From positions 1-36,175 of the forward strand of contig NZ_MRCD01000087.1 in the NCBI RefSeq assembly GCF_001904745.1: a DNA stretch of 36,175 bases, written 5' to 3'. The stretch is from Calothrix sp. HK-06. GTDB taxonomy: Bacteria; Cyanobacteriota; Cyanobacteriia; Cyanobacteriales; Nostocaceae. A program made the translations under genes and the position numbers. The number at the start of each line of letters is the position of its first letter. The first letter of the stretch is position 1. Below, piece by piece: positions 1 through 36,175 of this stretch. The notes under the pieces were generated by a model. The model worked only from the letters and a program-made list of their open reading frames with translations, was not told the DNA's origin and ran no database searches.

Positions 1-50
1 CCAAAAATCAAGTTATATCAGTAAAAACACTTAAAACTAGCCAACTACAA

Positions 51-1949
51 ATGAGTCTTGGTTGGGGCTTAATTCCTATTGCCGTAGTTGGCGGTTTAAT
101 AATTTTTGTACCGTTGTTTTTCGGTGGACTGGTAGTTATTGGTGAGCGGGAAGTAGGAATTGTTGTTAAAAAATTCGCTGTTTCTGGAAAAGGACTTCCT
201 CCTGGTCGGTTGATTGCTCTTAATGGTGAAGCTGGTTTGCAGGCAGACACTCTGGCACCTGGTTGGCATTGGGGTTACTTCCCTTGGCAATTTTCTGTGA
301 AAAAAGAAGCTGTTGTAGTCATACCACAAGGTGAAATTGCGCTTATAGTCGCCGCTGATGGTTCACAAGTACCACCTGAGAGAATCTTGGGTAAAATAGT
401 TGAATCTGATAACTTTCAAGACGCGCGTAAGTTTTTGCTGAATGGTGGAGAAAAAGGACGACAAATTGGTTTTCTCACTGCAGGTACTTACCGTATAAAT
501 ACTGCTTTGTTTAAAGTAATTACGGCGAGCAACGCAAGTCATCACGGGATGCGCGCGGAGCAGTTGCACATACATCAGATAGAAGCAGAAAAAGTTGGTA
601 TTGTTACAACTTTAGATGGTTCACCTATTCGGACAGGAGAAATAGCCGGACATACAATTCCTGGACACGATAACTTCCAAAACGGTCAGAGGTTTCTTGA
701 TGGTGGTGGACAAAGAGGTTTGCAAGAGCAGGTATTATTATCGGGTTCGTGGAATCTTAACCCCTGGCTTGTAAACGTTGAACAAGTACCAATGACCGAA
801 ATACCTATCGGTTATGTGGGAGTGGTTATTTCTTTCGTAGGTAAAGAACAAGAAGATGTTAGTGGCGCCTCGTTTACTCATGGTCAGTTAGTGAACCAAG
901 GACATAAAGGTGTATGGGTAGAGCCGTTATATCCTGGTAAACATCCTTTAAATACTAAAGTAATGAAAGTCGAGTTAGTGCCAACGACTAATATCGTCTT
1001 AAACTTTACTGATAGAATCATGGGTCAACATGGTTATGATAGTAAACTCACAGCATTGAAACTATTATCGTTTGACGGTTTTACCTTTGATTTAGAAATA
1101 TTCCAAATTATTCATATCGGCGCCAGTGATGCACCCAAAGTCATATCGCGCTTAGGTTCAATGCAAAACGTCATCGACCAAGTATTACGTCCAATAGTTG
1201 GAAACTATTTCCGTAACTCCGCTCAAGAGTACACAATTTTAGATTTTCTAATTGCCCGGAGCGAGCGTCAAGTCGAAGCATCAGAATACGTCAAATCAGC
1301 TTTACGTGCGTATGATGTTCAAGCAGTAGACTCTTTGATAGGTTTAATTACCCCACCACCAGAGTTAATGCATACACTTACCGACCGTAAAATTGCTGAA
1401 GAACAACGCAAAACTTACGAAGTTCAACAAATGGCGCAAACTCAGCGTCAGATGTTGGTAAGAGAAACATCATTAGCAGATATTCAAGACTCATTAGTTA
1501 CATCTGAAGAAGGAGTTAAAATTGCTCAATTAAAAGCTAATGCTAGAATTCAAGAAGCGACTGGTGAAGCAGAATCGATTAAATTAAAAGCCATAGCTGA
1601 AGCTGAAGGTATCCGCGCAACAGGTAACGCAAAAGCAGAAACATACCGTGCAGGTGTGGAAGCATTAGGTGAAAATGGTTACACCGCAATGCAAATGATG
1701 CAAATAGTGGGTGAAAGTAACGTCCGCTTAATACCCGATATATTAGTTGGTGGTAACAGTGGTGGTGGTGCCAATGGTTTAGTTGACGGTTTACTATCCA
1801 TGATTTTATGGAACCAAACCAGCACTAAACAAAACGGTAATACAAGCACCCAACCAATTTATCCTAGAGTGCCTGTGATGGCGCCGAAGAATGGTAACGG
1901 GAATGCTCATATACCTTTAAATCTTGATATTCCAACAGATAATCAATAA
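51..1949 (+). CDS. Flotillin-like SPFH (band 7) membrane protein
   Basis: This 632-residue protein starts with one hydrophobic segment (about residues 7-30) followed by GEREVGIVV, the usual entry into an SPFH domain. Residues 440-560 are a charged, Ala/Glu-rich coiled coil with repeated AEAEG and GEAES units, as in flotillins. Residues about 59-320 carry four related blocks built on a G..G.Q...L..G.W pattern, at about 59-104, 133-190, 220-264 and 284-320. The first three each contain a recognisable NGG/GGG or GLQ core. Flotillins form large rings that scaffold membrane microdomains, and a similar role here is inferred. The ATG at 51 has no clear Shine-Dalgarno sequence. A strong hairpin follows the stop codon. 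The protein is longer than typical bacterial flotillins because of the repeated N-terminal half. The SPFH call is firm and the cellular role is not. Confidence 0.88.
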   Translation: MSLGWGLIPIAVVGGLIIFVPLFFGGLVVIGEREVGIVVKKFAVSGKGLPPGRLIALNGEAGLQADTLAPGWHWGYFPWQFSVKKEAVVVIPQGEIALIVAADGSQVPPERILGKIVESDNFQDARKFLLNGGEKGRQIGFLTAGTYRINTALFKVITASNASHHGMRAEQLHIHQIEAEKVGIVTTLDGSPIRTGEIAGHTIPGHDNFQNGQRFLDGGGQRGLQEQVLLSGSWNLNPWLVNVEQVPMTEIPIGYVGVVISFVGKEQEDVSGASFTHGQLVNQGHKGVWVEPLYPGKHPLNTKVMKVELVPTTNIVLNFTDRIMGQHGYDSKLTALKLLSFDGFTFDLEIFQIIHIGASDAPKVISRLGSMQNVIDQVLRPIVGNYFRNSAQEYTILDFLIARSERQVEASEYVKSALRAYDVQAVDSLIGLITPPPELMHTLTDRKIAEEQRKTYEVQQMAQTQRQMLVRETSLADIQDSLVTSEEGVKIAQLKANARIQEATGEAESIKLKAIAEAEGIRATGNAKAETYRAGVEALGENGYTAMQMMQIVGESNVRLIPDILVGGNSGGGANGLVDGLLSMILWNQTSTKQNGNTSTQPIYPRVPVMAPKNGNGNAHIPLNLDIPTDNQ

Positions 1950-1950
1950 A

Positions 1951-1987
1951 AATCCCCCTGACCCCCCGTGAATTCGGGGGGATTTTA
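1951..1987 (+). terminator. Hairpin terminator after the flotillin-like gene
   Basis: The hairpin has a seven-pair stem, CCCCCCG (1962-1968) with CGGGGGG (1975-1981), and a six-base loop. It is followed by ATTTTAT, and an A-rich stretch precedes it, so it could work in both directions. It starts two bases after the stop codon. A similar C-tract/G-tract hairpin follows cysK at 13840-13869, including the shared lead-in ATCCCCCT. Both may belong to one repeat family. Confidence 0.75.
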
Positions 1988-2060
1988 TATTTTACATTTG
2001 TAGAAAAATTGGCGAAGATATTATTTAATTGCATAAAGTCTACAAAGAAAAGGAGTGTGA

Positions 2061-3785
2061 ATGTACGATTCTAATGTAGTACTGCCGATTTTTTTAGAAC
2101 CAGCGTACCGTTTATTTAAGCTAATTAGTTACGGTAAATATACACAAACTTTTTTCGCTGTTAATGAAGAAGAATATCCTTTTATACCTTGCGTCATTCA
2201 AAAAATATTATTACCACAATCAAGAAACTTTGAACATAAGTTACAAATATTACAACAGTTAAGCAAGTCTTCTCAAATCCCTAAGTTAATAGATTACCAC
2301 TGCGGCAACGATTGTATCTATTTAATATTTGAACATATTGAAGGTATAAATTTAAATACGTTACTCGCAGAACAAGGGACTTTAAGCGAAAATAAAATTT
2401 GGCAAATACTGACAGATATTTTAACTACTTTAAAATTAGTACATAGCCATAAATTAATTCATTGTGACATCAAGCCAGAAAATATTATATGTAGGAATGG
2501 CAGCCAAGATTTTGTTTTAGTTGATTTTGCTGCTTCTCAAGTAGCTGCTGCTTATTATCAAGCTAGTAACATTATTACAGGTAGTCCAGAATATACGGCG
2601 CCAGAGCTTGCTTTATCTAAACCAATATTTAGCAGTGACCTTTACAGCTTGGGTGTAACTTGTATTTATTTACTAACTCAAGTAAGACCTTTTGATTTAT
2701 ATGATACCGCGAATAATCAATGGGCATGGCGCCATTATTTACAAACACCTATTAGTGAGCGGTTGAGTAATATTCTTGATAAGCTGATTAACCAAGATAT
2801 AAATCAGCGTCCTGCGTCAGTTGATGAAGTATTAATGATGATGGGTATTTCAGCATATACTACGCATGAACGAAAAAATCAGGTGCCTGCGGAGCATAAA
2901 ACTATACATTCGACTTCAGAAGTAAACGCAGTTGCAGTTTGTTTGGATAAAAATATTATTGCGAGTACCCATAGTAACAAAGATGTATGTATATGGAATT
3001 TTAAAACACAACAATTATTACATACACTTCAAGGTCATAATAAACCAGTTACATCAGTAGCATTTAGTCCTGATGGTCAAATATTGGCAACAGGTAGCGA
3101 TGATAAAACAATCAAATTATGGAATCAAGATTATAAAGAAATTTATACCTTGGTAGAACATCAACACGTCGTCAAGTCAGTAGCATTTCATCCAAATGGA
3201 GAGATATTGGGTAGTGGAAGCTGGGATAAAACGATTAGACTTTGGGATGTGACTACAGGTAAAGAAGTTGCTGTGCTAACTGGACATAAGCTTCAAGTCA
3301 GTGCAGTCACATTTAGTGGTGATGGTAATTTAGCTAGTGCAAGCTTTGATAAAACAGTTCGCTTGTGGAAAAATGGCACCGATTATTTATCATATTCACT
3401 ATCTAATATATTATCGAGTCATACATGGGCGGTTACTGCCGTAGCATTTAATCCAGACGCGAAAATTTTAGCTACAGGTAGCGACGATAACACCATCAAA
3501 CTATGGAATGTAAGTACTGGTGAAGAATTCGCCACACTTACAGGACATTCTTGGTCAATTACAGCACTAGTATTTAATTCTGATGGAACTTTATTAGCAA
3601 GCGTAAGTAAAGATAAAACAGTTAAGCTCTGGCAAGTTAGCAACCAAGAAGAATTAACCACGCTTTCAGGTCATACAGATTCTGTTACGAGCGTTGCCAT
3701 TGCTAACTCTGACACACAAATTATTATTGCCAGTGGTAGCAAGGACAAAACGATTAAACTGTGGGAATTAGATATTTCCCATTAG
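2061..3785 (+). CDS. Ser/Thr protein kinase with WD40 propeller, degenerate kinase motifs
   Basis: The protein has 574 residues. Residues 10-265 form a Hanks-type kinase fold and residues about 286-574 carry seven WD40 repeats, enough for one beta-propeller. Repeats end in KLW/RLW and GH, for example DDKTIKLW. An AAAGGAG sequence lies just upstream of the ATG. The catalytic loop is HCDIKPEN (134-141), so the catalytic Asp and Asn are kept but the Arg of HRD is Cys. The Mg-binding motif is DFA (155-157) instead of DFG. The glycine loop reads SYGKYT, with two of three glycines lost. The alpha-C Glu position appears to be Lys (FEHK). The Lys of VAIK is either shifted or replaced (CVIQK). The APE motif is intact (180-182). 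The protein may therefore be weakly active or act mainly as a scaffold. Substrates are unknown. Confidence 0.9.
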   Translation: MYDSNVVLPIFLEPAYRLFKLISYGKYTQTFFAVNEEEYPFIPCVIQKILLPQSRNFEHKLQILQQLSKSSQIPKLIDYHCGNDCIYLIFEHIEGINLNTLLAEQGTLSENKIWQILTDILTTLKLVHSHKLIHCDIKPENIICRNGSQDFVLVDFAASQVAAAYYQASNIITGSPEYTAPELALSKPIFSSDLYSLGVTCIYLLTQVRPFDLYDTANNQWAWRHYLQTPISERLSNILDKLINQDINQRPASVDEVLMMMGISAYTTHERKNQVPAEHKTIHSTSEVNAVAVCLDKNIIASTHSNKDVCIWNFKTQQLLHTLQGHNKPVTSVAFSPDGQILATGSDDKTIKLWNQDYKEIYTLVEHQHVVKSVAFHPNGEILGSGSWDKTIRLWDVTTGKEVAVLTGHKLQVSAVTFSGDGNLASASFDKTVRLWKNGTDYLSYSLSNILSSHTWAVTAVAFNPDAKILATGSDDNTIKLWNVSTGEEFATLTGHSWSITALVFNSDGTLLASVSKDKTVKLWQVSNQEELTTLSGHTDSVTSVAIANSDTQIIIASGSKDKTIKLWELDISH

Positions 3786-3786
3786 A

Positions 3787-3816
3787 TGTAGAGACGCGAT
3801 AAATCGCGTCTCTACA
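3787..3816. repeat. Palindromic repeat between convergent genes (TGTAGAGACG family)
   Basis: A perfect 14-bp inverted repeat, TGTAGAGACGCGAT and its complement, is separated by AA. It starts two bases after the stop of the kinase-WD40 gene and ends 24 bp before the stop of the convergent PSRP-3 gene. Related copies lie at 15079-15108 and 35191-35220, also at gene 3' ends. The outer arms (GTAGAGAC/GTCTCTAC) are shared while the centre differs. It may end transcription from both sides, although no long T-run follows it. Confidence 0.8.
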
Positions 3817-3840
3817 AACGTTTCAAGAAACGCTGAAATA

Positions 3841-4140
3841 TCAAGCGCTACCAGTGAAGGTGACTTCAGGAAATTTCAACTGAGCTTCACCTATAGGTCG
3901 ATTTTTGCCTTCTTCTTGCCAGTAGTTAATTACTTCTGTAGCTTTGTTGAGCAACTCGACTCTATCTACATCTGTAATCCAGTGTTTGGACTCTAGTTCT
4001 TTTTTTAGTTCTTCCCAGGCATCATTTCTGGGCCAAAAGAAGTACTTTGTCAAGGGACTCGTGCCTTTGCCCACAATTTGGTCAACTGCTAGGGCTACAT
4101 TCTCATCTAACCAGAGAATTTTTAAGAGAAATTTGGACAA
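3841..4140 (-). CDS. ycf65: 30S ribosomal protein PSRP-3 (Ycf65, cS23)
   Basis: The protein has 99 residues. The stretches [21 protein letters not shown] and [14 protein letters not shown], and the end region with INYWQEE, match the PSRP-3/Ycf65 family, a small-subunit ribosomal protein shared by cyanobacteria and plastids. The start is a TTG at 4138-4140, directly after an in-frame TGA. A strong GGAGG Shine-Dalgarno sequence lies five bases upstream, which decides the start although the codon is unusual. The gene converges on the kinase-WD40 gene. The length is normal for the family. Confidence 0.9.
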
Positions 4141-4310
4141 TCACACCTCCGGGACGCATCCGGGCGAACTTTACAATCAATCAGACAGACGATTGCCTAT
4201 TTTAACTTAATAATCTACCACTTGAGCAAATCATCATAAAGAATTAGAACTCGCGTGGCTAAAAAATTAAGATAAAGTAGTTCAGGAACTTTTCTAGCTA
4301 CTCACACTCC

Positions 4311-5114
4311 ATGACTGAACAATCCCCAGTAAACGCTATTATTGTTTTCGATATCGATGGCGTTATCCGCGATGTTGGTGGTTCCTACCGTCGTGCCTTA
4401 GCTGATACTGTCGAGCATTTTACAGATTTCGCGTATCGTCCAACACCAGTAGATATTGATAAACTTAAATCGGAAGGCATTTGGAATAATGACTGGGAAG
4501 CTTCACAGGAGTTTATCTTTCGACACTTTGAGGCTCAAGGAAAACACCGTAATCAAGTCCAATTAGGCTATCAAGCGATAGTAGCATTTTTTCAATCACG
4601 TTATAGAGGTACAGACCCTAACAATTGGAATGGCTATATTTGTGATGAGCCATTGTTATTGCATCCTACATATTTAGAAGATTTAACGTCATCTGGTATT
4701 TTATGGGGATTTTTTAGCGGCGCCACTCGTGGTTCTGCAAATTATGTGTTAGAAAAACGCCTTGGTTTAAAAGCACCTGTACTATTAGCAATGGAAGACG
4801 CACCAGGTAAACCAGACCCTACAGGATTATTTGATACAGTTAGGCGCCTGGAAGCCGAACAAAATAATACGAGTAATACCGTTATATATGTGGGTGACAC
4901 GGTAGCTGATATGTATACTGTTATTAAAGCAAGAGAACTTGAACCACATCGCGAATTTATTGGTGTTGGCGTACTACCACCCCATGTCCAAAAAACACCC
5001 TCACGACGCGAAGCTTATGCAGAACTACTAATAAATGCAGGCGCCGAAGTTGTTTTTTGCAACGTCCAAGATTTAACCCCAACCCGCACAGCAGCTTTAC
5101 TTCTCAAAAATTAA
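4311..5114 (+). CDS. HAD-family hydrolase (TIGR01548-like)
   Basis: This 267-residue protein has all four haloacid dehalogenase motifs. Motif I is DIDGVIRD, with nucleophile Asp14 and Asp16. Motif II is in FFSGATRG, motif III is the Lys in APGKPDP, and motif IV is YVGDTVADM. The helical cap between motifs I and II makes it subfamily IA. The sequence resembles a conserved cyanobacterial and plant subfamily whose substrate I cannot name. Most members of this fold are phosphatases. It stands alone on the + strand, about 170 bp from PSRP-3, and no clear Shine-Dalgarno sequence precedes the ATG. Confidence 0.85.
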   Translation: MTEQSPVNAIIVFDIDGVIRDVGGSYRRALADTVEHFTDFAYRPTPVDIDKLKSEGIWNNDWEASQEFIFRHFEAQGKHRNQVQLGYQAIVAFFQSRYRGTDPNNWNGYICDEPLLLHPTYLEDLTSSGILWGFFSGATRGSANYVLEKRLGLKAPVLLAMEDAPGKPDPTGLFDTVRRLEAEQNNTSNTVIYVGDTVADMYTVIKARELEPHREFIGVGVLPPHVQKTPSRREAYAELLINAGAEVVFCNVQDLTPTRTAALLLKN

Positions 5115-5135
5115 ATGTAAACTCAAAATTGTGGA

Positions 5136-5153
5136 ACAGGCATCCCTGCCTGT
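5136..5153. repeat. Short hairpin repeat (TCCC/GGGA loop family), copy 1
   Basis: The perfect seven-pair stem ACAGGCA/TGCCTGT encloses a TCCC loop (GGGA on the other strand). It lies 21 bp after the HAD hydrolase stop, with GTGGA just before it. Related hairpins occur at 6763-6783 (imperfect), 14077-14096 and 31414-31431. The loop is constant, stem bases change in pairs, and the copies share flanking CCACAAGA-like sequence. Confidence 0.7.
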
Positions 5154-5185
5154 CCCAAACAAAAGATTCAAAATATTCAAAAATA

Positions 5186-5590
5186 TTAAATACTTAAACT
5201 ATCTAAAGAAAGATTATTTTCTCTACGGAAGTAAGAACTTGATTTAAAACCCATAATTTTACAAGACTCAGCACACTGACGGCAAATATTTGCACAATGT
5301 TGAAGTTTCACGTCATTGCCCATAGCTTCGCAAGCAATGGCAGTACTAATACACATTTCCGCACACAGTTGGCAAGTGCGACCCATAAATTCTGAACCAT
5401 CTACAATCAAATTGACGCACATCATGCACATCTCAGCGCAGTCACGCATCATACACATTAAGCTCATATTGATTGACTTATTGTCAACCGATTTGCAATA
5501 GTTGAGAGTTTCAATACAAGTGTCTTGGCATTCGACACATACTTGTTTACAAGCTTCGATTTCGGAAAGTACGTTATCTGTAATCATCAT
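5186..5590 (-). CDS. Cys-rich four-helix bundle copper-binding protein (DUF326), copy 1
   Basis: The protein has 134 residues from the ATG at 5590, with GGGG about eight bases upstream. An in-frame ATG further up adds 27 residues unlike the family. Seventeen cysteines are spaced mostly as CxxC and CxxxC along predicted helices, for example MRDCAEMCMMC and ANICRQCAESC. This is the pattern of DUF326 and the copper-storage Csp proteins, in which Cys lining the core of a four-helix bundle bind Cu(I). No signal peptide is seen, so the protein is probably cytosolic. A second, divergent copy lies at 14130-14495 with the same MRDCAE.CMMC core. Copper is the best-supported metal by family. Binding by this protein is inferred. 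Confidence 0.87.
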   Translation of the reverse strand: MMITDNVLSEIEACKQVCVECQDTCIETLNYCKSVDNKSINMSLMCMMRDCAEMCMMCVNLIVDGSEFMGRTCQLCAEMCISTAIACEAMGNDVKLQHCANICRQCAESCKIMGFKSSSYFRRENNLSLDSLSI

Positions 5591-5957
5591 GGCTTTATCC
5601 CCTGCACAAAACAAACTGTTCGTTGAATGGCTCATAATTAGTACGTTAAGACTTTGTATCTGAGAAATCAATAGGTCTTAAGGTTGCCAAATTTATAAAT
5701 TTATAAACCCTACTTGATAAGTAGGGATTTCCTAAATCTATAAAAATTGTAAAGAAGTTGTATATATCGTATATTCTAAGGAGACAGCCCTTGTAAATAA
5801 ACGATTATTGATTGTTGCTGTGATTATAAAATTATTAAATTCACCTCATTCAAGAATGTGAATGGGTATTTAAGCTTATCGACATATTTCTTAACATTAA
5901 GAAGCTACGGTTGCTAACTTTAGATTATTGTCATGAAATCTTGATATTTGCCTGATT
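5591..5957. other. Intergenic region between DUF326 copy 1 and the prohibitin-like gene
   Basis: This stretch of about 370 bp separates divergent genes and should hold both promoters. I see one clear structure, the 19-bp palindrome at 5708-5726. The rest is AT-rich, with several TATA-like stretches (for example 5690-5705) but no confident promoter pair and no RNA gene. Confidence 0.5.
5708..5726. promoter_or_regulatory. Palindrome upstream of DUF326 copy 1 (possible operator)
   Basis: The sequence is CCCTACTT-GAT-AAGTAGGG, a perfect eight-base inverted repeat with a three-base centre. It lies 118 bp upstream of the DUF326 start. A related arm pair, CCCTAGT and ACTGGGG, lies 104 bp upstream of the second DUF326 gene at 14599-14626. 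The spacing of the first copy resembles operators of MerR-type metal sensors (ACCCTA...TAGGGT), but no MerR gene is in the window. A hairpin attenuator or terminator is the main alternative. Confidence 0.4.
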
Positions 5958-6752
5958 ATGCATAATAAGAAGACTTTTAACAAAACAATTAGAATAATTT
6001 TGACTTTGGCGTTAGTAGGTATAATTTTCTTCCCCTTTGCTTTTGTTCAAGCTGGGGAGCGGGGAGTACTAATGTATTTTGGGCGAGTTGAAGATAAGAT
6101 TCTTCCAGAGGGTATTCATTTTATTATTCCCCTAATTAATACTGTTAAGAATTTGAGTGTCCGAGTTGAAAAGCAGGAGATATCCGCTGAAGCTTCTTCA
6201 AAGGATTTGCAGGAAGTGTATGCTGATGTGGCTTTGAATTGGCATATAGTACCAGAAGAGGTGAATATCATCTATCAACAGATAGGTGATGAAGTTCAAA
6301 TTATTGACAAAATTATTAATCCGGCAGTTGAAGAGGTGTTAAAGGCTGTAATGGCACAGTATACTGCTGAGGAAATAATTACTAAGCGTAGTGAGGTTAA
6401 AGCTGGTGTTGATGAGTTGTTAACTACACGACTAACTAGTTATCACATTAATGTTGATGATATTTCGCTTGTGCATGTTCATTTTTCTGATAGGTTTATG
6501 GATGCTGTTGAAGCGAAACAAGTTGCTGAACAAGATGCAAAGCGCGCGGACTATGTTGCACTTAAGGCTATTAAGGAAGCTGAAGCTAAAGTAAATTTGG
6601 CTAGGGGTGAAGCGGAATCACAAAGGTTGATAAAAGAAAATTTAACTCCTGATATTATACGTAAGCAAACTGTTGATAAGTGGGATGGTCAGTTGCCGAA
6701 GATTGTTAATGGTGGTGATTTAAAGTTTGATGTTGGTCAGTTTATGAAGTGA
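5958..6752 (+). CDS. Prohibitin-family SPFH protein
   Basis: This 264-residue protein has an N-terminal membrane anchor (about residues 10-30) followed by AGERGVLMYFGRVEDKILPEG, the typical prohibitin entry. The SPFH core includes SSKDLQEVYADVALNW. A coiled coil with AKRADYVALKAIKEAEAKV follows from about residue 185. Prohibitin-like proteins form membrane-associated rings and often protect or regulate membrane proteases. Such a role here is inferred. The ATG at 5958 has no obvious Shine-Dalgarno sequence. It is one of three SPFH genes in this window and resembles the one at 31949-32794 in size and domain order. Confidence 0.88.
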   Translation: MHNKKTFNKTIRIILTLALVGIIFFPFAFVQAGERGVLMYFGRVEDKILPEGIHFIIPLINTVKNLSVRVEKQEISAEASSKDLQEVYADVALNWHIVPEEVNIIYQQIGDEVQIIDKIINPAVEEVLKAVMAQYTAEEIITKRSEVKAGVDELLTTRLTSYHINVDDISLVHVHFSDRFMDAVEAKQVAEQDAKRADYVALKAIKEAEAKVNLARGEAESQRLIKENLTPDIIRKQTVDKWDGQLPKIVNGGDLKFDVGQFMK

Positions 6753-6762
6753 GGGGATGGGG

Positions 6763-6783
6763 GGCAGAAGAGGGATTGCCCGC
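6763..6783. repeat. Short hairpin repeat (GGGA family), degenerate copy
   Basis: GGGCA and TGCCC flank an AGAAGAGGGAT centre, followed by CGCTCCACAAGAG, which is also found after the copy at 31414-31431. The stem has only five pairs and the loop is expanded. The copy lies just after the prohibitin-like gene. Confidence 0.5.
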
Positions 6784-6810
6784 TCCACAAGAGAATTTAT
6801 TACACAGGAT

Positions 6811-7314
6811 TTATGGGGCTATTATAAGGCTGTATGTTAAGGCGCCTAAAACGAGTAAGGATATAAAGAAGTAAGTAAAGTCTCGTAGTTTTAGGAAGCT
6901 GAATAAAGAAATAATTACTCGGATGACTGGTATTGAAACTAGTACTAGTAAGCCAAGTTGAATTACGGCATCGCTGTAACCATCTGATACTGCTTTTACT
7001 ATACCTATTGGGGAACGTAATCTTTCTGGCTCTCCGTAAAAGAAGCGATATGTAATAGGTTCAGAGCCGTAATTTACCAAATAAATTATACCACCAAATA
7101 ATACTATTGCACTAGCTAGTAGAACACCATATTTTAGTAAGTTACTCAGCAAAGCTTCTAATTTTTGCTCGCTTTCTGGTTTCTCAATTCTAATGGCTTG
7201 TTGCTTTTCTAGTGCTGCGATGTCACTGTCTTGTTCTTCTGGTTGTAGCTGTAGTGTACTTACTTTTTCTGATGTTGACGAAAACCAGCTAGTATTTAAA
7301 TCTAAGTTATCCAT
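6811..7314 (-). CDS. DUF1634 membrane protein, partner of the TauE/SafE permease
   Basis: This 167-residue protein has a soluble, acidic N-terminus of about 58 residues and three predicted membrane segments (about 60-83, 115-137 and 145-165). The stretch with LGLLVLVSIPVIRVI followed by LRDFTYFF matches DUF1634. This family is commonly encoded beside TauE/SafE permeases and may be an accessory subunit. The ATG lies three bases after the stop of the permease gene (7318-8151), so the two are almost certainly one operon and translationally coupled. The N-terminal extension is longer than I expect for the family. Confidence 0.82.
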   Translation of the reverse strand: MDNLDLNTSWFSSTSEKVSTLQLQPEEQDSDIAALEKQQAIRIEKPESEQKLEALLSNLLKYGVLLASAIVLFGGIIYLVNYGSEPITYRFFYGEPERLRSPIGIVKAVSDGYSDAVIQLGLLVLVSIPVIRVIISLFSFLKLRDFTYFFISLLVLGALTYSLIIAP

Positions 7315-7317
7315 TTT

Positions 7318-23600: not shown

Positions 23601-23609
23601 GTTTGTTAA

Positions 23610-28647: not shown

Positions 28648-29120
28648 TCTGTGAACCTTATCTATATAAAGAGGTTAGGGACTAGGAAAACGAATAAAGG
28701 CGCCTGAGTACAGGTTTATTATAAAAGAACCCTATTATGAATATCCCTTATTTATCTGCTCATAACACAAATCATTAATCTCTTTTCACATTTACTCATC
28801 ACTACTGTCCTTAGCTCTCACCCCTATTACTTAGATTAAATTCTAATCAGGGCAAATGTATTCACCCAAATGGATGAACCACTAGTAGGAATCAAGAGAA
28901 ATTGTTAAATACTTGGAAACACACTATTTAAATTTAATGACAAATTACCAAAACCTGGGAGTAAAACTGTTTCAGTCGTTAACGAAATTTGTTTATTACG
29001 GTAATTATACTTACCTTGAGCATCTCGATATGGTTGACTGTAGCGTTCGAGTTCGTATGTTACTAAATTAAAAACAGAGACGCAGAAAATATCAACTACC
29101 TAAAGCTTATGACGTGAACC
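28648..29120. other. Gene-free stretch upstream of the histidine kinase pair
   Basis: About 470 bp without a recognisable gene. It should hold the kinase operon promoter near its left end. It contains one GGCGCC (28699). I see nothing in it that I can name, and no open reading frame with family features. Confidence 0.5.
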
Positions 29121-29324
29121 ATTTAATTTAATAAGTTAGTAGTTCGTGTCAGAAGTTTTGGGGTGTTGGTTTGCAACGGATGTAACGGATGTAACGGATG
29201 ATTTATTTGCTACAAACTTGCGTCCAGTTATTTAAAATTACTTCTCCGTTACATCCGTTCATCATCCGTTGCCAATTTTCCTACTCCCCAAAACTAATGA
29301 CATGAAATACTAGTTTATTTAAAT
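29121..29324. repeat. 204-bp imperfect hairpin (MITE-like) with 9-bp tandem repeats
   Basis: Left and right ends are imperfect inverted repeats of about 75-80 bases. Matching stretches include GTGTCA/TGACAT, AGTTTTGGGG/CCCCAAAACT, and CAACGGATG with TAACGGATG copies. The left arm holds three consecutive 9-mers (CAACGGATG, TAACGGATG, TAACGGATG) at 29174-29200. The right arm has the same heptamer in reverse orientation. The unpaired centre (about 29203-29250) is AT-rich. There is no coding sequence. I could not find a convincing target-site duplication. Confidence 0.65.
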
Positions 29325-29410
29325 TACTGGGGTTTATTTACGCGAATCCCCCAGTAAAACATGATTTTAACTTTAGGTTTAGGTGCCACATGAGATTTTC
29401 TGCGCGAATG

Positions 29411-29441
29411 TTGGGTGGAGGAGCGGAACCCAACCTACGAG
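29411..29441. repeat. TTGGGT repeat, half copy after the ABC-F gene
   Basis: GTTGGGTGGAGG-AGCGGAACCCAACCTACG matches one side of the elements at 9959-10054 and 17073-17144. GTTGGGT and ACCCAAC pair. It lies directly at the 3' end of the ABC-F gene (minus strand) and could serve as part of its terminator. Confidence 0.65.
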
Positions 29442-29442
29442 T

Positions 29443-31371
29443 TTATGATTCGATTTCAGCTAGCTCCATCCAGCGTTCTGTGGCTTTGTCGATTGCGCGT
29501 TTAATTTCTTCTACTTGGTCGTATAATTTTTGAACTTGGGTGTAGTTTCCTGCTGGTGCGTTACCCATTGCTTTTTCGACTTCGGCTTTTTCGGTTTCTA
29601 ATTTCGCTATTTTTCCTTCGAGTTCGTCAAATTCTCGTTTTTCCCATGTTGATAGTCTACGCTTTTTGGGTGTTTCTGATGGCGCCGATGTTTTTACTTC
29701 TTTTGCTTCTACTGAGGTGCTTTTAGGTTTTTCTTTGACTTCCGATGTTTGTTGTGCTTCCTCTTGTGCTTTATAGTCGAGGTATACTGAGTAGTTACCT
29801 GGGTATTGACGAATATTTCCACCTTCTTCTAAGGCAAAAATTGTGTCTACTGTACGGTCAAGAAAATAACGGTCGTGGGATACTACGATTACACTGCCTG
29901 TAAAGTCTTCTAGGTATTCTTCTAATATTGCTAGTGTTTGTACGTCTAAATCATTCGTCGGTTCGTCTAATATTAATACGTTTGGTGCGCTAATTAATAT
30001 ACGCAGCAAAAATAGGCGCCTTTTTTCTCCTCCTGATAGTTTGCTTATTGGTGCATATTGTTGATTTCCTGGGAATAAGAATCGTTCTAACATCTGGGAA
30101 GCACTAATTTGAGTTCCATCAGATATTTTGATGAATTCTCCTTCTTCTTTGATGTAGTCAATTACACGCTGCGAATCGTTGAGTGCAGCTAGTAAGTCAT
30201 CGGAATGTTGGTCGAAATACCCTATATGTATTGTGGTGCCAATATCGACTTTACCCGAATCAGGTTGTACTTTTCCGGTGATAATATTCATTAAAGTGGA
30301 TTTGCCGGCGCCGTTTCCACCAATTATACCTATACGGTCTTCAGGACTAAATTCGTAGGTAAAGTCTTTAATTAGTGTTCGCTCGTTATATGCTTTAGAA
30401 ACATGCTCTAACTCAATAACTTTTTTACCGATGCGTCTACTAACGGTAGATATTTCAACTTTGCCAATTCCTTGCTTAAATTCGGTTTCGCGCATTGCTT
30501 CGACACGTTGAATACGCGCTTTTTGTTTTGTACTGCGTGCTTTGGGTCCACGCTTTAACCATTCTAACTCGCGCCGTAATACACCCTGAAATTTACGTTG
30601 TGTACTTGCAGAAGATTCTTCAGCAGCAGCTTTTTTTTCTAGGTAATACGAATAATTACCTGAATAAGTATAAATATCACCTCTGTCAATTTCAATAATT
30701 CGATTTGTGACTTTATCTAGAAAATATCTATCGTGAGTAATTAATAATAAGGCGCCACGATATCGATTTAAATAACTTTGTAACCATTCTACCGAAAGTG
30801 CATCTAAATGGTTAGTCGGCTCGTCCATTAATAATAAATCTGGTTCGGCAAGTAAAGCTGTTGCTAAAGCTATTCGCTTACGATAACCTCCAGATAATGT
30901 ACCAACTTTTACATTAAAGTCAGTGATACCTAATTTAGTCAAAATAATTTTAGCATTTGTCTCTAATTCCCAGGCGCCTGTTGTGTCCATTCGTTGCATA
31001 ACGCTAGATAAACGCGACATCAACTGACTATCTTCTGGATAATGCGCTAACTTTTCTGAGATTTCTTCGTACTCACGTACTAAAGTCATTTGCTCACCAC
31101 TGTCAGCAAAAACCTGCTCGATAACAGTACGACTTTCATCAACATCGGGTTGCTGTGGTAAGTATATAACTTTGGCGCCGGAATTCGTTATGATTTGTCC
31201 AGCATCGATTGGCTCGATACCAGCTATCATTTTTAATAACGTTGATTTTCCCGAACCATTTGTACCAATTAAACCAACTTTATCGTTTGCATCAACGCTA
31301 AAACTAGCTTCTTTTAAGATTTCTTTAATGCCAAAATCTTTTTTAACCGACTGTAATATAACAAGACTCAT
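29443..31371 (-). CDS. ABC-F ATPase (Uup-like)
   Basis: The protein has 642 residues from the ATG at 31371. An extension to 31452 would run through a repeat and is unlikely. It has two ATPase cassettes and no membrane segment. The first Walker A is GTNGSGKST (about 36-44), the signature LSGGYRKRIALA, and Walker B LLLMDEPTNHLD. The second has GGNGAGKST, LSGGEKRRLFLL and LILDEPTNDLD. The interdomain linker is rich in charged residues (ELEWLKRGPKARSTKQKAR). The C-terminal 60 residues are a coiled coil after a Lys/Pro/Ser-rich linker, as in Uup. ABC-F proteins act on ribosomes. Uup-type members are linked to ribosome assembly and DNA stability. Exact role unproven. Confidence 0.92.
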   Translation of the reverse strand: MSLVILQSVKKDFGIKEILKEASFSVDANDKVGLIGTNGSGKSTLLKMIAGIEPIDAGQIITNSGAKVIYLPQQPDVDESRTVIEQVFADSGEQMTLVREYEEISEKLAHYPEDSQLMSRLSSVMQRMDTTGAWELETNAKIILTKLGITDFNVKVGTLSGGYRKRIALATALLAEPDLLLMDEPTNHLDALSVEWLQSYLNRYRGALLLITHDRYFLDKVTNRIIEIDRGDIYTYSGNYSYYLEKKAAAEESSASTQRKFQGVLRRELEWLKRGPKARSTKQKARIQRVEAMRETEFKQGIGKVEISTVSRRIGKKVIELEHVSKAYNERTLIKDFTYEFSPEDRIGIIGGNGAGKSTLMNIITGKVQPDSGKVDIGTTIHIGYFDQHSDDLLAALNDSQRVIDYIKEEGEFIKISDGTQISASQMLERFLFPGNQQYAPISKLSGGEKRRLFLLRILISAPNVLILDEPTNDLDVQTLAILEEYLEDFTGSVIVVSHDRYFLDRTVDTIFALEEGGNIRQYPGNYSVYLDYKAQEEAQQTSEVKEKPKSTSVEAKEVKTSAPSETPKKRRLSTWEKREFDELEGKIAKLETEKAEVEKAMGNAPAGNYTQVQKLYDQVEEIKRAIDKATERWMELAEIES

Positions 31372-31413
31372 AACTGATAAATATTGGGCAATTGGCAATT
31401 TTTTAGATGTTGG

Positions 31414-31431
31414 GCGGGCAGGGATGCCCGC
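31414..31431. repeat. Short hairpin repeat (GGGA loop family), copy 4
   Basis: GCGGGCA-GGGA-TGCCCGC is a perfect seven-pair stem. It is followed by TCCACAAGAGAGGCTCCACAAG, a duplicated tail unit. Compared with the copy at 14077-14096, stem bases ACA/TGT have become GCG/CGC in a compensating way. It lies between the ABC-F start and the DUF1824 gene. Confidence 0.7.
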
Positions 31432-31460
31432 TCCACAAGAGAGGCTCCACAAGATTAAGA

Positions 31461-31877
31461 TTAATCAAATAGGTCTAGGGGTAAGTGACCATACATTTCG
31501 TTAATTCCACTTTGGGTGTGGGACTGGCACGATACTAAAACGCCGCGATGGTGCCCTGAATATGAATCAAGGTAACACAAACCATTTTTGCCGTTTAATT
31601 TGATGTAAACAGGTCCCTCAATAATAGGCAAATTGCTAGGTGGCTCATAGCCGAATGCCAAGGAGTAACCTTTCATCGCCGCCAAACCTTCTTCGGCTGT
31701 ATCGGCACAAATACCTAAGATTTGATAATCTGAAAGTCTAGCAAAAGCTAGTATTGCTTTACGGACTAAAGCTTTTTCAGAACTCTTAACTATCGGAGCA
31801 ATATCGACGCAATTGAATTTGTTTAGGATTTTTTTTGCGTCTTGAAGTGTGAGATTGGTTTGGTTTTGACTTGTCAT
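31461..31877 (-). CDS. DUF1824 protein
   Basis: The protein has 138 residues and AGG upstream of the ATG. The sequence NLTLQDAKKILNKF near the start, SDYQILGICADTAEEGLAAMKGYSLAFGYE in the middle, and GPVYIKLNGKNGLCYLDSYSGHHRGVLVSCQS towards the end match the DUF1824 family, small cyanobacterial and plastid-lineage proteins of unknown function. It is soluble with no signal peptide. The gene stands between the SPFH gene and the ABC-F gene on the same strand, 71 bp after the former. Confidence 0.8.
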   Translation of the reverse strand: MTSQNQTNLTLQDAKKILNKFNCVDIAPIVKSSEKALVRKAILAFARLSDYQILGICADTAEEGLAAMKGYSLAFGYEPPSNLPIIEGPVYIKLNGKNGLCYLDSYSGHHRGVLVSCQSHTQSGINEMYGHLPLDLFD

Positions 31878-31948
31878 ATACCTGCTGGTTACTAGTTGTG
31901 TGCTGTGTTGGTCAGATAGCGCGTTACTCTTTGTGTTTTATTTCAACT

Positions 31949-32794
31949 TTAAGGTGATTGGATGTTACCTACATTAAATAGAAATGGCACACTGCTAGTT
32001 TTATCGTTCCCCATAACAAGAACTTTTGGCATTTGGGCGCCACCAGTTTTCCATGCTTCAATTGCCTCCTTTTGTAACACTAACTGTCCTCCTTGAGCTT
32101 TTAATGTTTCAGCTAAAAGTCTTTGAGCTTCGGCTTTACCTTTGGCACGATTAATTTCTGCTTGAGCTTCTTGTTCTGCTTCTCTAGCTATATATACCGC
32201 TCGCTGTGCCCGCTGTTCGGCAATTTGCTTCTCTTCTACCGCTCTTGCGAATTCAGGAGAGAATGTTAAGTCTACGACGCTGGTGTCTAAGACAATTATT
32301 CCATATTTATCTAATCGTTGGCTTAATGCTAAATCAAAGTCATCCTTAAGTTCAGTTCGCCGGGTGATAGCTTCTTCTACTGTCCTGCGTGCTGCTGCTA
32401 TTTTAAATGATTCCTGAGTTTGTGGTGCAATAATCTTTGCTACTATGTTTTCTAAAGTACCCTGAGTTCTACGTATTTGTACTACTTCTGAGGAATCTAT
32501 TTGAAAGTTAATCGCAAATCTTGCGGACAGCGTTTGCAAATCCTTTGTTGAACTTTCGGCAGGCACTTCAAATTTTTGCACCGTCAAATCATATATATCT
32601 ATCACTGAAATAAAAGGTGGTTTAACGTGAATTCCCTCCAGTAATGCTCCATCTGTAGCTTTACCTAATATACTAATCACCCCTGCTTGCCCAGGATTTA
32701 TTATGATAAAGGAATTTAAACTCAACAGTACAATTATACCTAGTACTATACCTAATGCAGCGCTTTGCCAACTGGCAGATTGCGTATTTTTCAA
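31949..32794 (-). CDS. Prohibitin-family SPFH protein 2
   Basis: This 281-residue protein has one membrane anchor (about 11-33), then INPGQAGVISILGKATDGALLEGIH, the prohibitin entry. The SPFH core includes STKDLQTLSARFAINFQ. A coiled coil follows from about residue 190 (EKQIAEQRAQRAVYIAREAEQEAQAEINRA). The C-terminus holds GGAQMPKVLVMG, as in prohibitins. The start is TTG at 32794. It is decided by a near-perfect AAAGGAGGAG ribosome binding site six bases upstream. It diverges from an ABC exporter gene across 90 bp. It resembles the protein at 5958-6752 in plan but is not identical. Confidence 0.88.
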   Translation of the reverse strand: MKNTQSASWQSAALGIVLGIIVLLSLNSFIIINPGQAGVISILGKATDGALLEGIHVKPPFISVIDIYDLTVQKFEVPAESSTKDLQTLSARFAINFQIDSSEVVQIRRTQGTLENIVAKIIAPQTQESFKIAAARRTVEEAITRRTELKDDFDLALSQRLDKYGIIVLDTSVVDLTFSPEFARAVEEKQIAEQRAQRAVYIAREAEQEAQAEINRAKGKAEAQRLLAETLKAQGGQLVLQKEAIEAWKTGGAQMPKVLVMGNDKTSSVPFLFNVGNIQSP

Positions 32795-32825
32795 CTCTCC
32801 TCCTTTTATTTACGTTCTCTATATT

Positions 32826-32850
32826 CGTTTGCGTTCTATTAAAACAAACG
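32826..32850. promoter_or_regulatory. Small inverted repeat in a divergent promoter region
   Basis: CGTTTG and CAAACG are separated by 13 bases between the divergent SPFH and ABC exporter genes. It could be an operator shared by both. Six-base arms are weak evidence. Confidence 0.25.
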
Positions 32851-32884
32851 TAGTAAAATATAATTCACACTTCAAAAAATAGCT

Positions 32885-34693
32885 GTGGTTACGCTATCAA
32901 AAGATTTTAGGGCATCTAACACTAGCACTGGTTCAGTACATCCACTCCAGCGCTTGTCAAGTTACGGTATTCATTATCGCAAACAAATCTGGCAAGCAGC
33001 CATTTGTTCGGTTTTAAACAAAGTTTTCGATTTGGCGCCACCTGTACTAATTGGTACGGCAGTTGATGTGGTGGTCAAAAAGCAAGATTCAGTCATCGCA
33101 CGTCTGGGAATTACCGATATATTCGGACAATTCCTTATTCTAGCGTTTTTTACGGTGATTGTCTGGGTATTAGAGTCGGTGTTTGAGTACGCATACAAAC
33201 GACTGTGGCGAAATTTATCGCAGCAAATTCAGCATAATTTACGTCTTGACGCTTACAACCATCTGCAAGAATTAGAGCTAGCTTACTTTGAAGAACGTAG
33301 TACCGGTGGATTAATGTCTATTTTGAGTGACGACGTTAACCAGTTGGAAAGGTTTTTAGATGGTGGAGCAAGTGATATTATTCAAGTTGTCGCGACAGTT
33401 TTAATTATTGGTACTGGTTTCTTGATTGTTGCTCCAAGTGTCGCATGGTTGGCTATGTTGCCAATTCCGTTTATAATTTGGGGATCTTTTGCTTTCAGAA
33501 AATTATTAGAATTGCGTTACGCTGATGTTCGCTCAAAAGTTGGATTTTTGAACTCACGCTTATCCAATAATATCAGTGGTATTACCACAATCAAAAGTTT
33601 TACTGCTGAAGAATACGAAAGCGCACGTGTTGCCGCAGACAGCGAAGCTTACAAAAAAAGTAATGCTCAAGCAATTAAACTATCAGCAGCATTTGTGCCA
33701 TTAATTAGAATGCTGATTTTAGCTGGATTCACCGTTTTATTGATATTTGGAGGAATGGCAGCTGTAAATGGGAAAATCTCAGTTGGTGTTTATAGCATTT
33801 TAGTTTTTATTACTCAGCTTTTACTTTGGCCCCTAACCCGTCTTGGTGAAACTTTTGATTTATATCAACGGGCAATGGCATCAACTGACCGCATTATGGA
33901 TTTATTAGATACTCCCATCACGATTTATACAGGAGATACACGCATATCTCCCGAAAAGGTCAGGGGAGAAGTCGAGTTAAACAATATTACTTTCGCTTAC
34001 AAAGATAGATTCCCAATTATCAACAATGTCTCATTACATATACCCGCAGGAAAAACAATTGCTATTGTCGGTTCTACAGGTTCAGGTAAAAGCACTTTAG
34101 TAAAGTTATTACTACGACTTTATGAAATACAGTCTGGAATAATTACCCTTGATGGTATCAATATTGAGCAATTGAATATTCGTGACTTGCGTTCGTGTAT
34201 TGGTTTAGTTAGCCAAGACGTATTTTTATTTCATGGGACAGTTGCCGAAAATATTGCCTACGGAACATTTAATGCGACTGATAGAGAAATAAAAATGGCA
34301 GCAACAGTCGCAGAAGCACATGAGTTTATTGTTAACTTGCCCGAAGGATATGAAACAATAGTTGGTGAACGCGGACAAAAGTTATCTGGAGGACAAAGAC
34401 AACGCATTGCTATTGCACGTGCTATTCTCAAAGACCCTCCAATTCTTATTCTCGATGAAGCAACTTCTGCTGTAGATAACGAAACCGAAGCTGCCATCCA
34501 AATGTCACTCGAACGAATTACGGCAAACAGAACTACAATCGCCATCGCGCACCGTCTTTCTACTATCCGCAACGCTGATAAAATTTATGTGATGGAACAT
34601 GGACAATTTATTGAATCGGGAACTCACGAGCAGCTATTAGAAAAACAAGGAGTATACGCAAAACTATGGCGTGTCCAAAGTGGTTTAAAATAA
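32885..34693 (+). CDS. ABC exporter, fused membrane and ATPase domains (MsbA-like)
   Basis: The protein has 602 residues and GTG at 32885, the only usual start codon after the in-frame stop at 32861. Residues about 25-330 are a six-helix exporter domain containing AYFEERSTGGLMSILSDDVNQLERFLD, a typical coupling-helix region. Residues about 358-602 are the ATPase: Walker A GSTGSGKST, Q-loop LVSQDVFLF, signature LSGGQRQRIAIARA, Walker B LILDEATSAVD, and the H-loop IAHRLSTIRNADKI. It works as a homodimer or heterodimer exporting lipids, peptides or drugs. The substrate is unknown. No Shine-Dalgarno sequence is visible upstream. Confidence 0.92.
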   Translation: MVTLSKDFRASNTSTGSVHPLQRLSSYGIHYRKQIWQAAICSVLNKVFDLAPPVLIGTAVDVVVKKQDSVIARLGITDIFGQFLILAFFTVIVWVLESVFEYAYKRLWRNLSQQIQHNLRLDAYNHLQELELAYFEERSTGGLMSILSDDVNQLERFLDGGASDIIQVVATVLIIGTGFLIVAPSVAWLAMLPIPFIIWGSFAFRKLLELRYADVRSKVGFLNSRLSNNISGITTIKSFTAEEYESARVAADSEAYKKSNAQAIKLSAAFVPLIRMLILAGFTVLLIFGGMAAVNGKISVGVYSILVFITQLLLWPLTRLGETFDLYQRAMASTDRIMDLLDTPITIYTGDTRISPEKVRGEVELNNITFAYKDRFPIINNVSLHIPAGKTIAIVGSTGSGKSTLVKLLLRLYEIQSGIITLDGINIEQLNIRDLRSCIGLVSQDVFLFHGTVAENIAYGTFNATDREIKMAATVAEAHEFIVNLPEGYETIVGERGQKLSGGQRQRIAIARAILKDPPILILDEATSAVDNETEAAIQMSLERITANRTTIAIAHRLSTIRNADKIYVMEHGQFIESGTHEQLLEKQGVYAKLWRVQSGLK

Positions 34694-34759
34694 TGGGCGG
34701 CGCCAATATGAAAGCCAATCTTTAAAAGTTACCTTGCAAAAATAGTCAGGAGCTAAATT

Positions 34760-35185
34760 ATGTTTACTACGTCATCTCAACCTTCATCACCAGAAAACGA
34801 ATGGCGCCATCGGTTAGACAAATTCGTCAAAGACCATAAAATAGAGTTAGCAGCTTTATCGTGGGCACTATGGTTAGAAAACGGTAACAGTCAGGGAACC
34901 ATAGGTATAGATTTACAGCCAACACCACACTTTGTATACTGTCCCCCGACAGCAGTTGAAAGCTTAAACGACAGAGTAGAGAATCGTCTTCAGGAAATTT
35001 TAGGACTTATTAAGCACCATAAACCTGAAGTAGAAGTTTTGATGATAGGTATTGGTAAAGACCAAGTTAAACTTATTTATTTTGAACCAGAAACGGCGCC
35101 ACCTCAAAGTTATGAGCAACTAGGCAAAAATGTTGATACACTCATAGAAGAATTAGAAACAAAACTCGGTGCCTCTTTATCTTGA
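34760..35185 (+). CDS. Probable CcmS-like beta-carboxysome assembly chaperone
   Basis: The protein has 141 residues; the preceding GTCAGGAGC provides AGGAG about ten bases upstream of the ATG. The sequence NEWRHRLDKFVKDHKIELAALS, ALWLENGNSQGTIGIDL, PTPHFVYCPPTAVESLN and EVLMIGIGKDQVKLIYFEPE resembles the small cyanobacterial family I know as CcmS, a helper for the carboxysome shell protein CcmK1. I recognise this from memory, so it needs a search. It is soluble, with no signal peptide, and the Pro/Ala-rich C-terminal 30 residues form a helix. It follows the ABC exporter by 66 bp on the same strand and converges on a kinase gene, with a palindrome between. Confidence 0.6.
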   Translation: MFTTSSQPSSPENEWRHRLDKFVKDHKIELAALSWALWLENGNSQGTIGIDLQPTPHFVYCPPTAVESLNDRVENRLQEILGLIKHHKPEVEVLMIGIGKDQVKLIYFEPETAPPQSYEQLGKNVDTLIEELETKLGASLS

Positions 35186-35190
35186 TGTTA

Positions 35191-35220
35191 CGTAAAGATG
35201 TTACATGTAACGTCTCTACC
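35191..35220. repeat. Palindromic repeat (TGTAGAGACG family), copy 3
   Basis: CGTAAAGATGTTACA and TGTAACGTCTCTACC pair at 12 of 15 positions. The centre TTACATGTAA is shared with the copy at 15079-15108. The repeat supplies the stop codon of the convergent kinase gene (CTA at 35216-35218) and starts five bases after the CcmS-like stop. Confidence 0.75.
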
Positions 35221-36175
35221 TTCCACGTAACCAGTCTTTAATTTCCTGCGCTATCCATAAACATTCTTGGGCACTTAGTCCAATACCAAACGAAAATCGT
35301 TTATATTCGGTTTGAATAGTAATCATTTCCTTTTCTTGATGACTTTCAAGCTGAAGGTTATCTTCTTTGCCTAAACGAATAATACTTTGAAATACGTCTC
35401 TGATATCTCTAACCTTGCCACTTTTTATACTGCGACGAAACGTAAATATCCATAATTCTATACTAAAATTATCTTCATTGAAACATATTTTGTGATTACC
35501 AAAGTCTGAAATTATGAACTGGTCTATGACCGCTAGCCAAATTAAAAGGAGGGGAACAGTAATTCCAAGTGCTGGTAAAATTCCTGTCATTAGTCCTATT
35601 CCTGATATTGGAAAAAAGCCTAGTCCCAATGCTGCGATTATTAAATATTTAACTGTTAAAGCGATGACTCTAATATTATCTATTCGCTTTCTAGGAAGAA
35701 CTATGTTTAATTTATTAAAAGTTTTGTTGATTTTGACTAAACTATAATTAGGTTTGCGAAAGGGTTGGAAAATATTGCTCGCTGCTTTGTTACTCAAACT
35801 ATTAGACTCAAGTGCTTTTAATGCTTCTGTGGCATTACTCAAACGTCTTTCTACTGATGGCTCTAAAACGTGTTCAATCCAAGCTAGAAAATTATCATTT
35901 ATATTAACTTTATCGTGAAATTGTATTTTTAAATCGCGAACAGGCAAATCAGCAGGAGGTATACCTGTTAATAAATGAATAATAGTTGCACCTAGTCCAT
36001 ATAAGTCAGAAGCAGGTACAGCTTTGCCTCCAAACTGTTCCATTGGTGCATAACCATATGTTCCTACAACAGTAAAAGTAACACCCTCTTTAGCTGCTTT
36101 ATCTTGAACGGCGCCAAAATCAACTAAATAAACCTCTTTATCTTCTCCTAAAATTAAATTACTCGGCTTAATATC
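35216..36175 (-). CDS. Ser/Thr protein kinase, 5' end cut by the window edge
   Basis: At least 319 residues are visible. The reading frame is open to the window edge, entering at DIKPSNL of the catalytic loop. LVDFGAVQ is the Mg-binding motif (intact DFG), followed by GTYGYAPMEQFGG, the activation segment typical of cyanobacterial Hanks kinases. After the kinase domain are two or three hydrophobic segments (about residues 165-220 of the visible part) and a C-terminal region of about 100 residues with no recognised domain, rich in RRSIKSGKVRD-type basic stretches. An ATG inside the frame at 36043 would exclude the catalytic loop and is not the true start. The substrate is unknown. Confidence 0.88.
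   Translation of the reverse strand, partial: DIKPSNLILGEDKEVYLVDFGAVQDKAAKEGVTFTVVGTYGYAPMEQFGGKAVPASDLYGLGATIIHLLTGIPPADLPVRDLKIQFHDKVNINDNFLAWIEHVLEPSVERRLSNATEALKALESNSLSNKAASNIFQPFRKPNYSLVKINKTFNKLNIVLPRKRIDNIRVIALTVKYLIIAALGLGFFPISGIGLMTGILPALGITVPLLLIWLAVIDQFIISDFGNHKICFNEDNFSIELWIFTFRRSIKSGKVRDIRDVFQSIIRLGKEDNLQLESHQEKEMITIQTEYKRFSFGIGLSAQECLWIAQEIKDWLRGR

Follow-up and report, generated by a model that had tools for sequence, protein, structure and literature searches.

The hexamer GGCGCC is an alternate highly iterated palindrome (HIP) of the cyanobacterial genus that includes Calothrix PCC 7103 and Dulcicalothrix, as seen from a 36,175-nucleotide contig of Calothrix sp. HK-06 (NZ_MRCD01000087.1; the window, by which we mean this whole stretch of DNA) and its relatives. 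We put at roughly one in two the probability that, in this genus, GGCGCC is the target of a solitary 5-methylcytosine (m5C) methylase of the GRCGYC type, tied to a bias in repair or fixation. Hoarding of the word is a stable clade trait of the genus, because all seven species examined have high GGCGCC densities; this is new here and contrary to the published sporadic picture. The word itself is already on record: Elhai 2015 (PMC4390886) describes this alternate HIP from Calothrix PCC 7103, as well as from 19 kb of Calothrix D253, and argues that such exceptional HIPs are sporadic and do not form clades. An earlier note on this DNA, made from its letters alone, knew of no description of such a role, which does not hold for the literature at large. 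No further paper on GGCGCC in this role was found in a literature search restricted to open-licence papers.

The window holds 54 copies of GGCGCC, as the earlier note had counted, against a mean of 2.92 and a maximum of 7 in 100 dinucleotide shuffles and an order-1 Markov expectation of 2.54 at 37.8% guanine plus cytosine (GC), and the word ranks first among the over-represented palindromic hexamers of the window. The copies do fall in all three reading frames and between genes, with 25 in the GGC-GCC frame (Gly-Ala), 13 and 11 in the remaining two frames and 5 outside open reading frames (ORFs), where about 9 would lie under uniform placement. This frame count used 31 of the 36 ORFs of at least 100 amino acids, the five overlapping ORFs being omitted. 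The flanks of the 54 sites display no clear consensus. The sites, none of which is assigned a strand, are as follows.

All 54 GGCGCC sites, spanning 864..36115, no strand assigned, first bases at 864, 1119, 1880, 2597, 2728, 4719, 4843, 5040, 6841, 7423, 7966, 8002, 8777, 9015, 9707, 10435, 11004, 11103, 12376, 13527, 13659, 15927, 16084, 17027, 17747, 18573, 18919, 19485, 21511, 21773, 22212, 22513, 22637, 22861, 23471, 24071, 24438, 25411, 26240, 26295, 26456, 28699, 29681, 30015, 30307, 30751, 30973, 31174, 32036, 33034, 34699, 34803, 35095 and 36110
18919..18924, no strand assigned, GGCGCC outside the main ORFs
23471..23476, no strand assigned, GGCGCC outside the main ORFs
28699..28704, no strand assigned, GGCGCC outside the main ORFs
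34699..34704, no strand assigned, GGCGCC outside the main ORFs
36110..36115, no strand assigned, GGCGCC outside the main ORFs, close to the contig end

The excess extends to the whole genome to which the window belongs (9,990,453 bases in 243 contigs), which carries 15,449 copies of GGCGCC and 6 of the reversed word CCGCGG. In 347 kb of this genome, including the window, the sample to which the word ratios given below also refer, GGCGCC reaches 22.8 times its order-1 expectation. HIP1 (GCGATCGC), the palindrome that the earlier note had not seen in the window, is indeed absent from its 36,175 nucleotides; since merely 0.13 copies would be expected by chance, this absence by itself says little. 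The same genome holds 88 copies of HIP1 and 66 of its reversed word (9.99 Mb), which is near chance level, and these genome-wide counts, which might have overturned the note, leave its contrast between the two words standing. GATC and GGCC occur at 0.12 and 0.16 of expectation, and in the text of Elhai 2015 (PMC4390886) the GATC depletion of PCC 7103 is the deepest of his set. After GGCGCC, the top over-represented palindromic hexamers are CGCGCG (6.1-fold) and GCGCGC (3.3-fold), and eight others (CCATGG, CCCGGG, CCGCGG, CGTACG, GAGCTC, GTCGAC, GTGCAC and TTCGAA) do not occur in the 347 kb at all. The spacing of GGCGCC is almost random (coefficient of variation of the gaps 0.98; 2,970 sites in 1.85 Mb), with 94 pairs closer than 50 bp where 203 would be expected and fewer pairs than expected below 100 bp as well. 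For the suggestion that the word is a strand-exchange signal we found no evidence, the sites being scattered nearly at random. A Chi-like or DNA-uptake signal would be looked for in orientation, even spacing or shared flanks; GGCGCC, being a palindrome, lacks an orientation.

The window's genome is a congener of Calothrix PCC 7103. A protein of the window is 96–97% identical to its counterparts in Calothrix sp. FI2-JRJ7, Calothrix sp. PCC 7716, Dulcicalothrix desertica PCC 7102 and Calothrix sp. PCC 7103, and the next closest match is Calothrix elsteri CCALA 953 (76% identity), in 11 kb of which HIP1 occurs 14 times and GGCGCC is absent. Three attributes of an alternate HIP, namely a GC-rich palindrome at about 1,000–2,000 copies per Mb, low HIP1 in the same genome and an encoded methylase that fits the word, are all found in the seven species, whose divergence is about 4–21%. 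GGCGCC stands at 1,150–1,711 per Mb (7,475–20,380 per genome) with 1–8 copies of the reversed word per genome, HIP1 at 31–163 per genome with 37–75 for its reversed word, and a fitting methylase, assigned by homology, is present in 7/7. Elsewhere in the family, 43 of 69 sampled genomes contain fewer than 20 GGCGCC and the maximum is 530. In a 388-genome sample of the order, the top counts belong to two sampled congeners and to one genome of a different family (G059; 9,489 copies in 3.8 Mb, reversed word 2,450). By density, a 2.2-Mb genome comes next (G116; 1,075 per Mb, with about 500 per Mb for the reversed word), and another reaches 400 per Mb, with 126 per Mb for the reversed word (G194). 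One candidate for an alternate HIP (G170) was rejected, being HIP1-rich, at 51% GC and with 42 GGCGCC versus 24 expected in 60 kb, and a genome represented by three short contigs only (G008) was left out of the analysis.

A cognate methyltransferase, which the earlier note had proposed to look for, is likely encoded, judging from protein similarity and the mutation pattern. DNA_methylase (PF00145) matches are found in the genus, and two m5C methylase clusters are universal across the seven congeners, one of about 370 amino acids, which adjoins recO in the window's genome (L014:7034-8146), and one of about 317 amino acids (P0001), with extra copies in several congeners. BsaHI, HgiDI and HindV constitute one GRCGYC group, in which M.BsaHI methylates the central C (PMC2413257). 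The published target-recognition signature for GRCGYC (R at −12, G or A at −10, TI or TV, and NRP) was present in 31/31 sequences inspected, comprising 12 proteins of the genus, the C-terminal piece of the gene in the window's genome, one plasmid protein and 17 of the 28 orthologues outside the genus. Plasmid relatives of P0001 (55–57% identity) include one annotated as HindV and one with a HindVP-family endonuclease as its neighbour. The gene of the window's genome is split at the ends of two contigs (C29 and C207), its pieces being 93% and 97% identical to P0001, and it adjoins a RuBisCO-like gene. For PCC 7103, Elhai 2015 (PMC4390886) lists two GRCGYC methylases and a truncated CGATCG methylase; a methylase fragment on contig C178 of the window's genome could not be identified as a lost CGATCG methylase.

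The genus also differs from most of its relatives in the neighbour of the methylase. Among 28 orthologue loci outside the genus, 22 have a HindVP-type restriction gene, in some cases as fragments, next to the methylase (21 when searched with the plasmid query), and the genomes with the adjacent gene have a median of 0.85 GGCGCC per Mb versus 26.4 in the six without it (p = 0.02); loss of the nuclease is thus accompanied by a weaker avoidance of the word. No HindVP-type gene was found beside the methylase in the loci of the genus (about 2.5 Mb including overlaps, with about 1.4 kb or more on each side), a distant copy being possible; the nuclease was probably lost rather than moved. Relatives that keep the methylase beside a restriction gene hold almost no GGCGCC. 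The presence of the methylase alone was rejected as a predictor of high GGCGCC. Of the 69 genomes that belong to the family but not to the genus, 29 have a strong methylase match, and their median is 0.96 per Mb versus 4.49 in the others (p = 0.016), so that the methylase by itself predicts avoidance, and the neighbouring restriction gene separates the genomes better.

The gains and losses of the word among congeners were followed in three syntenic regions of seven species aligned to PCC 7103. A first parsimony pass over one region returned 11 gains, 8 of them from GGTGCC/GGCACC, and 20 losses; because carriers mostly formed no clades, we moved to a likelihood model with two-state rates, without recombination, on a fixed tree set from pairwise identities. 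For the change from GGTGCC/GGCACC to GGCGCC, this model gave a gain rate of 22.0 (confidence interval 14.9–30.0) versus 0.79 for the same change elsewhere, a value to be read with caution because loss differs between lineages, and for the reverse loss at the third and fourth bases (C3/G4) it gave 1.69 (1.35–2.01) versus 0.99 in the control. The remaining eight neighbour types, taken together, displayed no significant rise in gains, and their losses lay under the context control. At third codon positions, the C3/G4 gain was 30.0 (20.1–44.7) versus 1.18 and the loss 3.99 (3.0–5.5) versus 3.30, and at the outer bases the gain was 15.1 (3.3–36.6) versus 0.69 and the loss 0.42 versus 2.92. At codon positions 1 and 2, the C3/G4 loss was 0.44 versus 0.14 and the gain 6.5 (0.4–20) versus 0.10. 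Degenerate fits (GACGCC/GGCGTC by codon position, with 3–9 mixed sites) were given no weight. Under the model, GGTGCC/GGCACC would thus turn into GGCGCC about 25 times faster than matched controls at third codon positions, and creation of the word at synonymous positions looks favoured at C3/G4 and at the outer bases alike. Mutation to T is much more frequent at the third base, the one that M.BsaHI methylates, than at the outer bases, which is what 5-methylcytosine at that position would produce. GGTGCC/GGCACC, the product of a C-to-T change at the third base, stands at 1.57 times expectation and is the sole one-step neighbour in excess.

Loss is unevenly distributed, with clear tip losses of 6.1% in the window's genome, 4.6% in FI2-JRJ7 and 6.3% in PCC 7103, and of 2.9% in PCC 7716 and 1.2% in PCC 7102; on the two longest branches tip losses are 3.5 and 5.3% versus 5.9 and 13.8% in controls. 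With loss free by clade, the gain estimate is 12.4 and the control gain value is rejected (twice the log-likelihood difference, 2ΔlnL, 15.3); at third positions this clade model gives 29.5 (2ΔlnL 16.6) at C3/G4 and 13.1 (2ΔlnL 8.8) at the outer bases. Homoplasy counted in Fitch steps is not above controls, 22 of 145 mixed positions requiring two or more changes versus 143 of 949.

These patterns point to a mechanism in which the most likely product of the solitary GRCGYC-type methylase is GG-mC-GCC, methylated at the third base of either strand; that the methylase acts at GGCGCC in vivo is probable, with the C3-to-T pattern as indirect support. A methylation-linked bias in mismatch repair or fixation would favour changes that create GGCGCC and hold back the loss of the word through its outer bases, with C-to-T at the methylated base going on at the ordinary rate or above. 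The text of Elhai 2015 (PMC4390886) proposes that mismatch repair directed by methylated GC generates such words, and the raised gain, the lowered outer synonymous loss and the undiminished C-to-T fit a repair bias of this type better, if not decisively, than selection with a single coefficient. A fuller and more tentative history can be envisioned: a GRCGYC restriction–modification system lost its nuclease, and the solitary methylase joined a methylation-directed mismatch repair that rewrote synonymous positions into GGCGCC, possibly making one of the family's most avoided words the commonest palindromic hexamer across the whole genus.

Several observations weigh against the methylase-linked bias. 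The other GRCGYC targets are depleted rather than enriched, at 0.07 of order-1 expectation for GACGTC and 0.29 for GACGCC/GGCGTC. The six orthologue genomes without an adjacent nuclease outside the genus reach at most 70 GGCGCC per Mb; losing the neighbouring nuclease alone is insufficient for GGCGCC hoarding. The uneven tip losses inflated the first gain estimate, and under the clade model the excess of gains loses significance outside third codon positions. At codon positions 1 and 2, loss at the outer bases matches the control (0.15 versus 0.14), and intergenic sites are too few for an estimate of gain or loss. Unambiguous tip gains amount to 3 of 36 opportunities versus 381 of 14,565 for controls (binomial P = 0.07 overall and 0.007 when restricted to the five short branches). 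Finally, the spacing of the word lacks the evenness expected from a ceiling near one word per kb.

The alternative that survives best is selection on the word itself, whereby GGCGCC would act as a signal for repair, recombination or chromosome maintenance, a role also argued for HIP1, and methylation would do no more than make its third base mutable. The persistence of the word across the whole genus speaks for it, as do outer-base losses about 7-fold under control at third codon positions, accompanied by raised gains, and a retention above that of hexamers matched for composition when PCC 7103 is compared pairwise with five out of six genomes (for example, 51/74 versus 48/84 for genome G390). 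The sixth comparison, with the window's genome (G000), goes the other way (47/60 versus 49/56), loss at C3 is not reduced, and with one coefficient a 7-fold drop in loss predicts an approximately 3-fold rise in gain, whereas the estimate is about 20-fold with a lower bound of about 5-fold; sites of mixed strength could still fit. We therefore regard selection as a possible, if doubtful, driver of the accumulation.

Alternatively, the word could be a relic that accumulated in an ancestor and now only decays through C-to-T at the methylated base. The preponderance of clear losses across the seven tips (113 versus 3 gains) and the genomic excess of GGTGCC/GGCACC would be natural under such a decay, but opportunities numbered 36 for gain versus more than 2,700 for loss, gain at the control rate is rejected, and every one of the seven species retains GGCGCC at the densities given above, all of which makes a pure relic improbable. 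Very-short-patch repair, in which a T:G mismatch nuclease of the Vsr type would convert GGTGCC to GGCGCC, accords with the strongest gain signal being T-to-C at the methylated position, a known effect of Vsr at dcm sites. It is nonetheless very unlikely: Vsr (PF03852) was detected in 0 of 80 genomes searched, all seven congeners among them, with a control search positive in 5 of 14 well-known genomes and unrelated T:G repair enzymes not searched for, and gains look raised at the outer bases too. Codon usage, base composition or an assembly artefact, to which the prominence of the Gly-Ala frame (25 of 54 sites) might lend colour, is refuted by the counts, as the remaining frames and non-ORF sites are also represented, the reversed word occurs 6 times against 15,449 and the pattern recurs in seven independent assemblies.

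The role of HIP words has long been open, and a genus that has exchanged its old word for a new one allows repair bias, selection and relic to be tested base by base. That an alternate HIP has lasted while a whole genus diversified lessens the force of the published argument by which HIP1 alone lasts and is hence selected. If the history tentatively set out above is true, HIP words at large would be traces left by the methylase, whichever it is, that marks the strands for repair in a cyanobacterium. Something like GGCGCC hoarding may have arisen once more, in G059, the sole genome with a strong P0001 match (54% identity) of the five sampled in its genus. HIP1 occurs once in 41 kb of G059 versus 57 times in 60 kb of a congener. 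The enriched words of G059 include CGGCGCCG and GGCGCTGG; given the enrichment of GGCGCTGG, its methylase target may differ.

The few copies of HIP1 are clustered. Islands rich in HIP1 and GATC and poor in GGCGCC, such as L029 4330-14616, occur in the window's genome, PCC 7102 and PCC 7103. Of 13 stretches picked for HIP1 clusters, 10 contain an island of three or more HIP1 (52.7 kb in total), with HIP1, GGCGCC and GATC at 0.97, 0.28 and 4.4 per kb versus 0.07, 0.96 and 1.6 in the rest of the stretches; GGCGCC runs at 1.6 per kb in the 1.85 Mb used for spacing. This suggests that the islands are DNA acquired from HIP1-bearing cyanobacteria, and foreign DNA would gain GGCGCC only with residence.

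Further observations concern methylases and mobile DNA. A phage-like contig of the window's genome (C60, 1-16827, with a DnaB helicase and a DpdA-like protein) encodes a methylase of its own, with 83% identity to P0001, as well as part of a second one, and is host-like in its words, with 16 GGCGCC and 1 GATC. A 658-amino-acid protein whose N-terminal half holds an m5C methylase domain (L012 3052-5028, minus strand) is found in 5/7 congeners, and neither Pfam nor NCBIfam gave a match for the 435-amino-acid protein adjoining it. A dispersed repeat of about 119 bp, at 14834-14952 of the window, has dozens of near-identical matches in the window's genome and Calothrix FI2-JRJ7 and fewer in other congeners, among the matches listed; it looks like a small non-coding mobile element.

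Among known systems, the M.BsaHI/M.HgiDI/HindV group (PMC2413257) resembles the methylase of the genus in its recognition signature around the TL motif, its size and its relation to HindVP-type systems, and differs in that no restriction gene was found adjoining the methylase in this genus. HIP1 (GCGATCGC) is likewise a genome-wide GC-rich palindrome at about one or two copies per kb and linked to a methylase, but it is another word, near chance level here (88 in 9.99 Mb) and clustered in probably foreign islands. In E. coli, Vsr acts at dcm sites, where the m5C methylase system entails a T-to-C bias that enriches its own site. The genus shares with Dcm/Vsr an m5C methylase and a T-to-C bias enriching the site, and departs from it in that no Vsr gene was found and the bias may reach unmethylated bases. 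The closest parallel is the alternate HIP of PCC 7103 and D253 as described in PMC4390886, with the identical word and genus, near absence of HIP1, depletion of GATC and of the other GRCGYC words, and one or more GRCGYC methylases; beyond the two strains described there, the trait now extends to 7/7 species of the genus, with the neighbour-gene and gain/loss evidence added to it.

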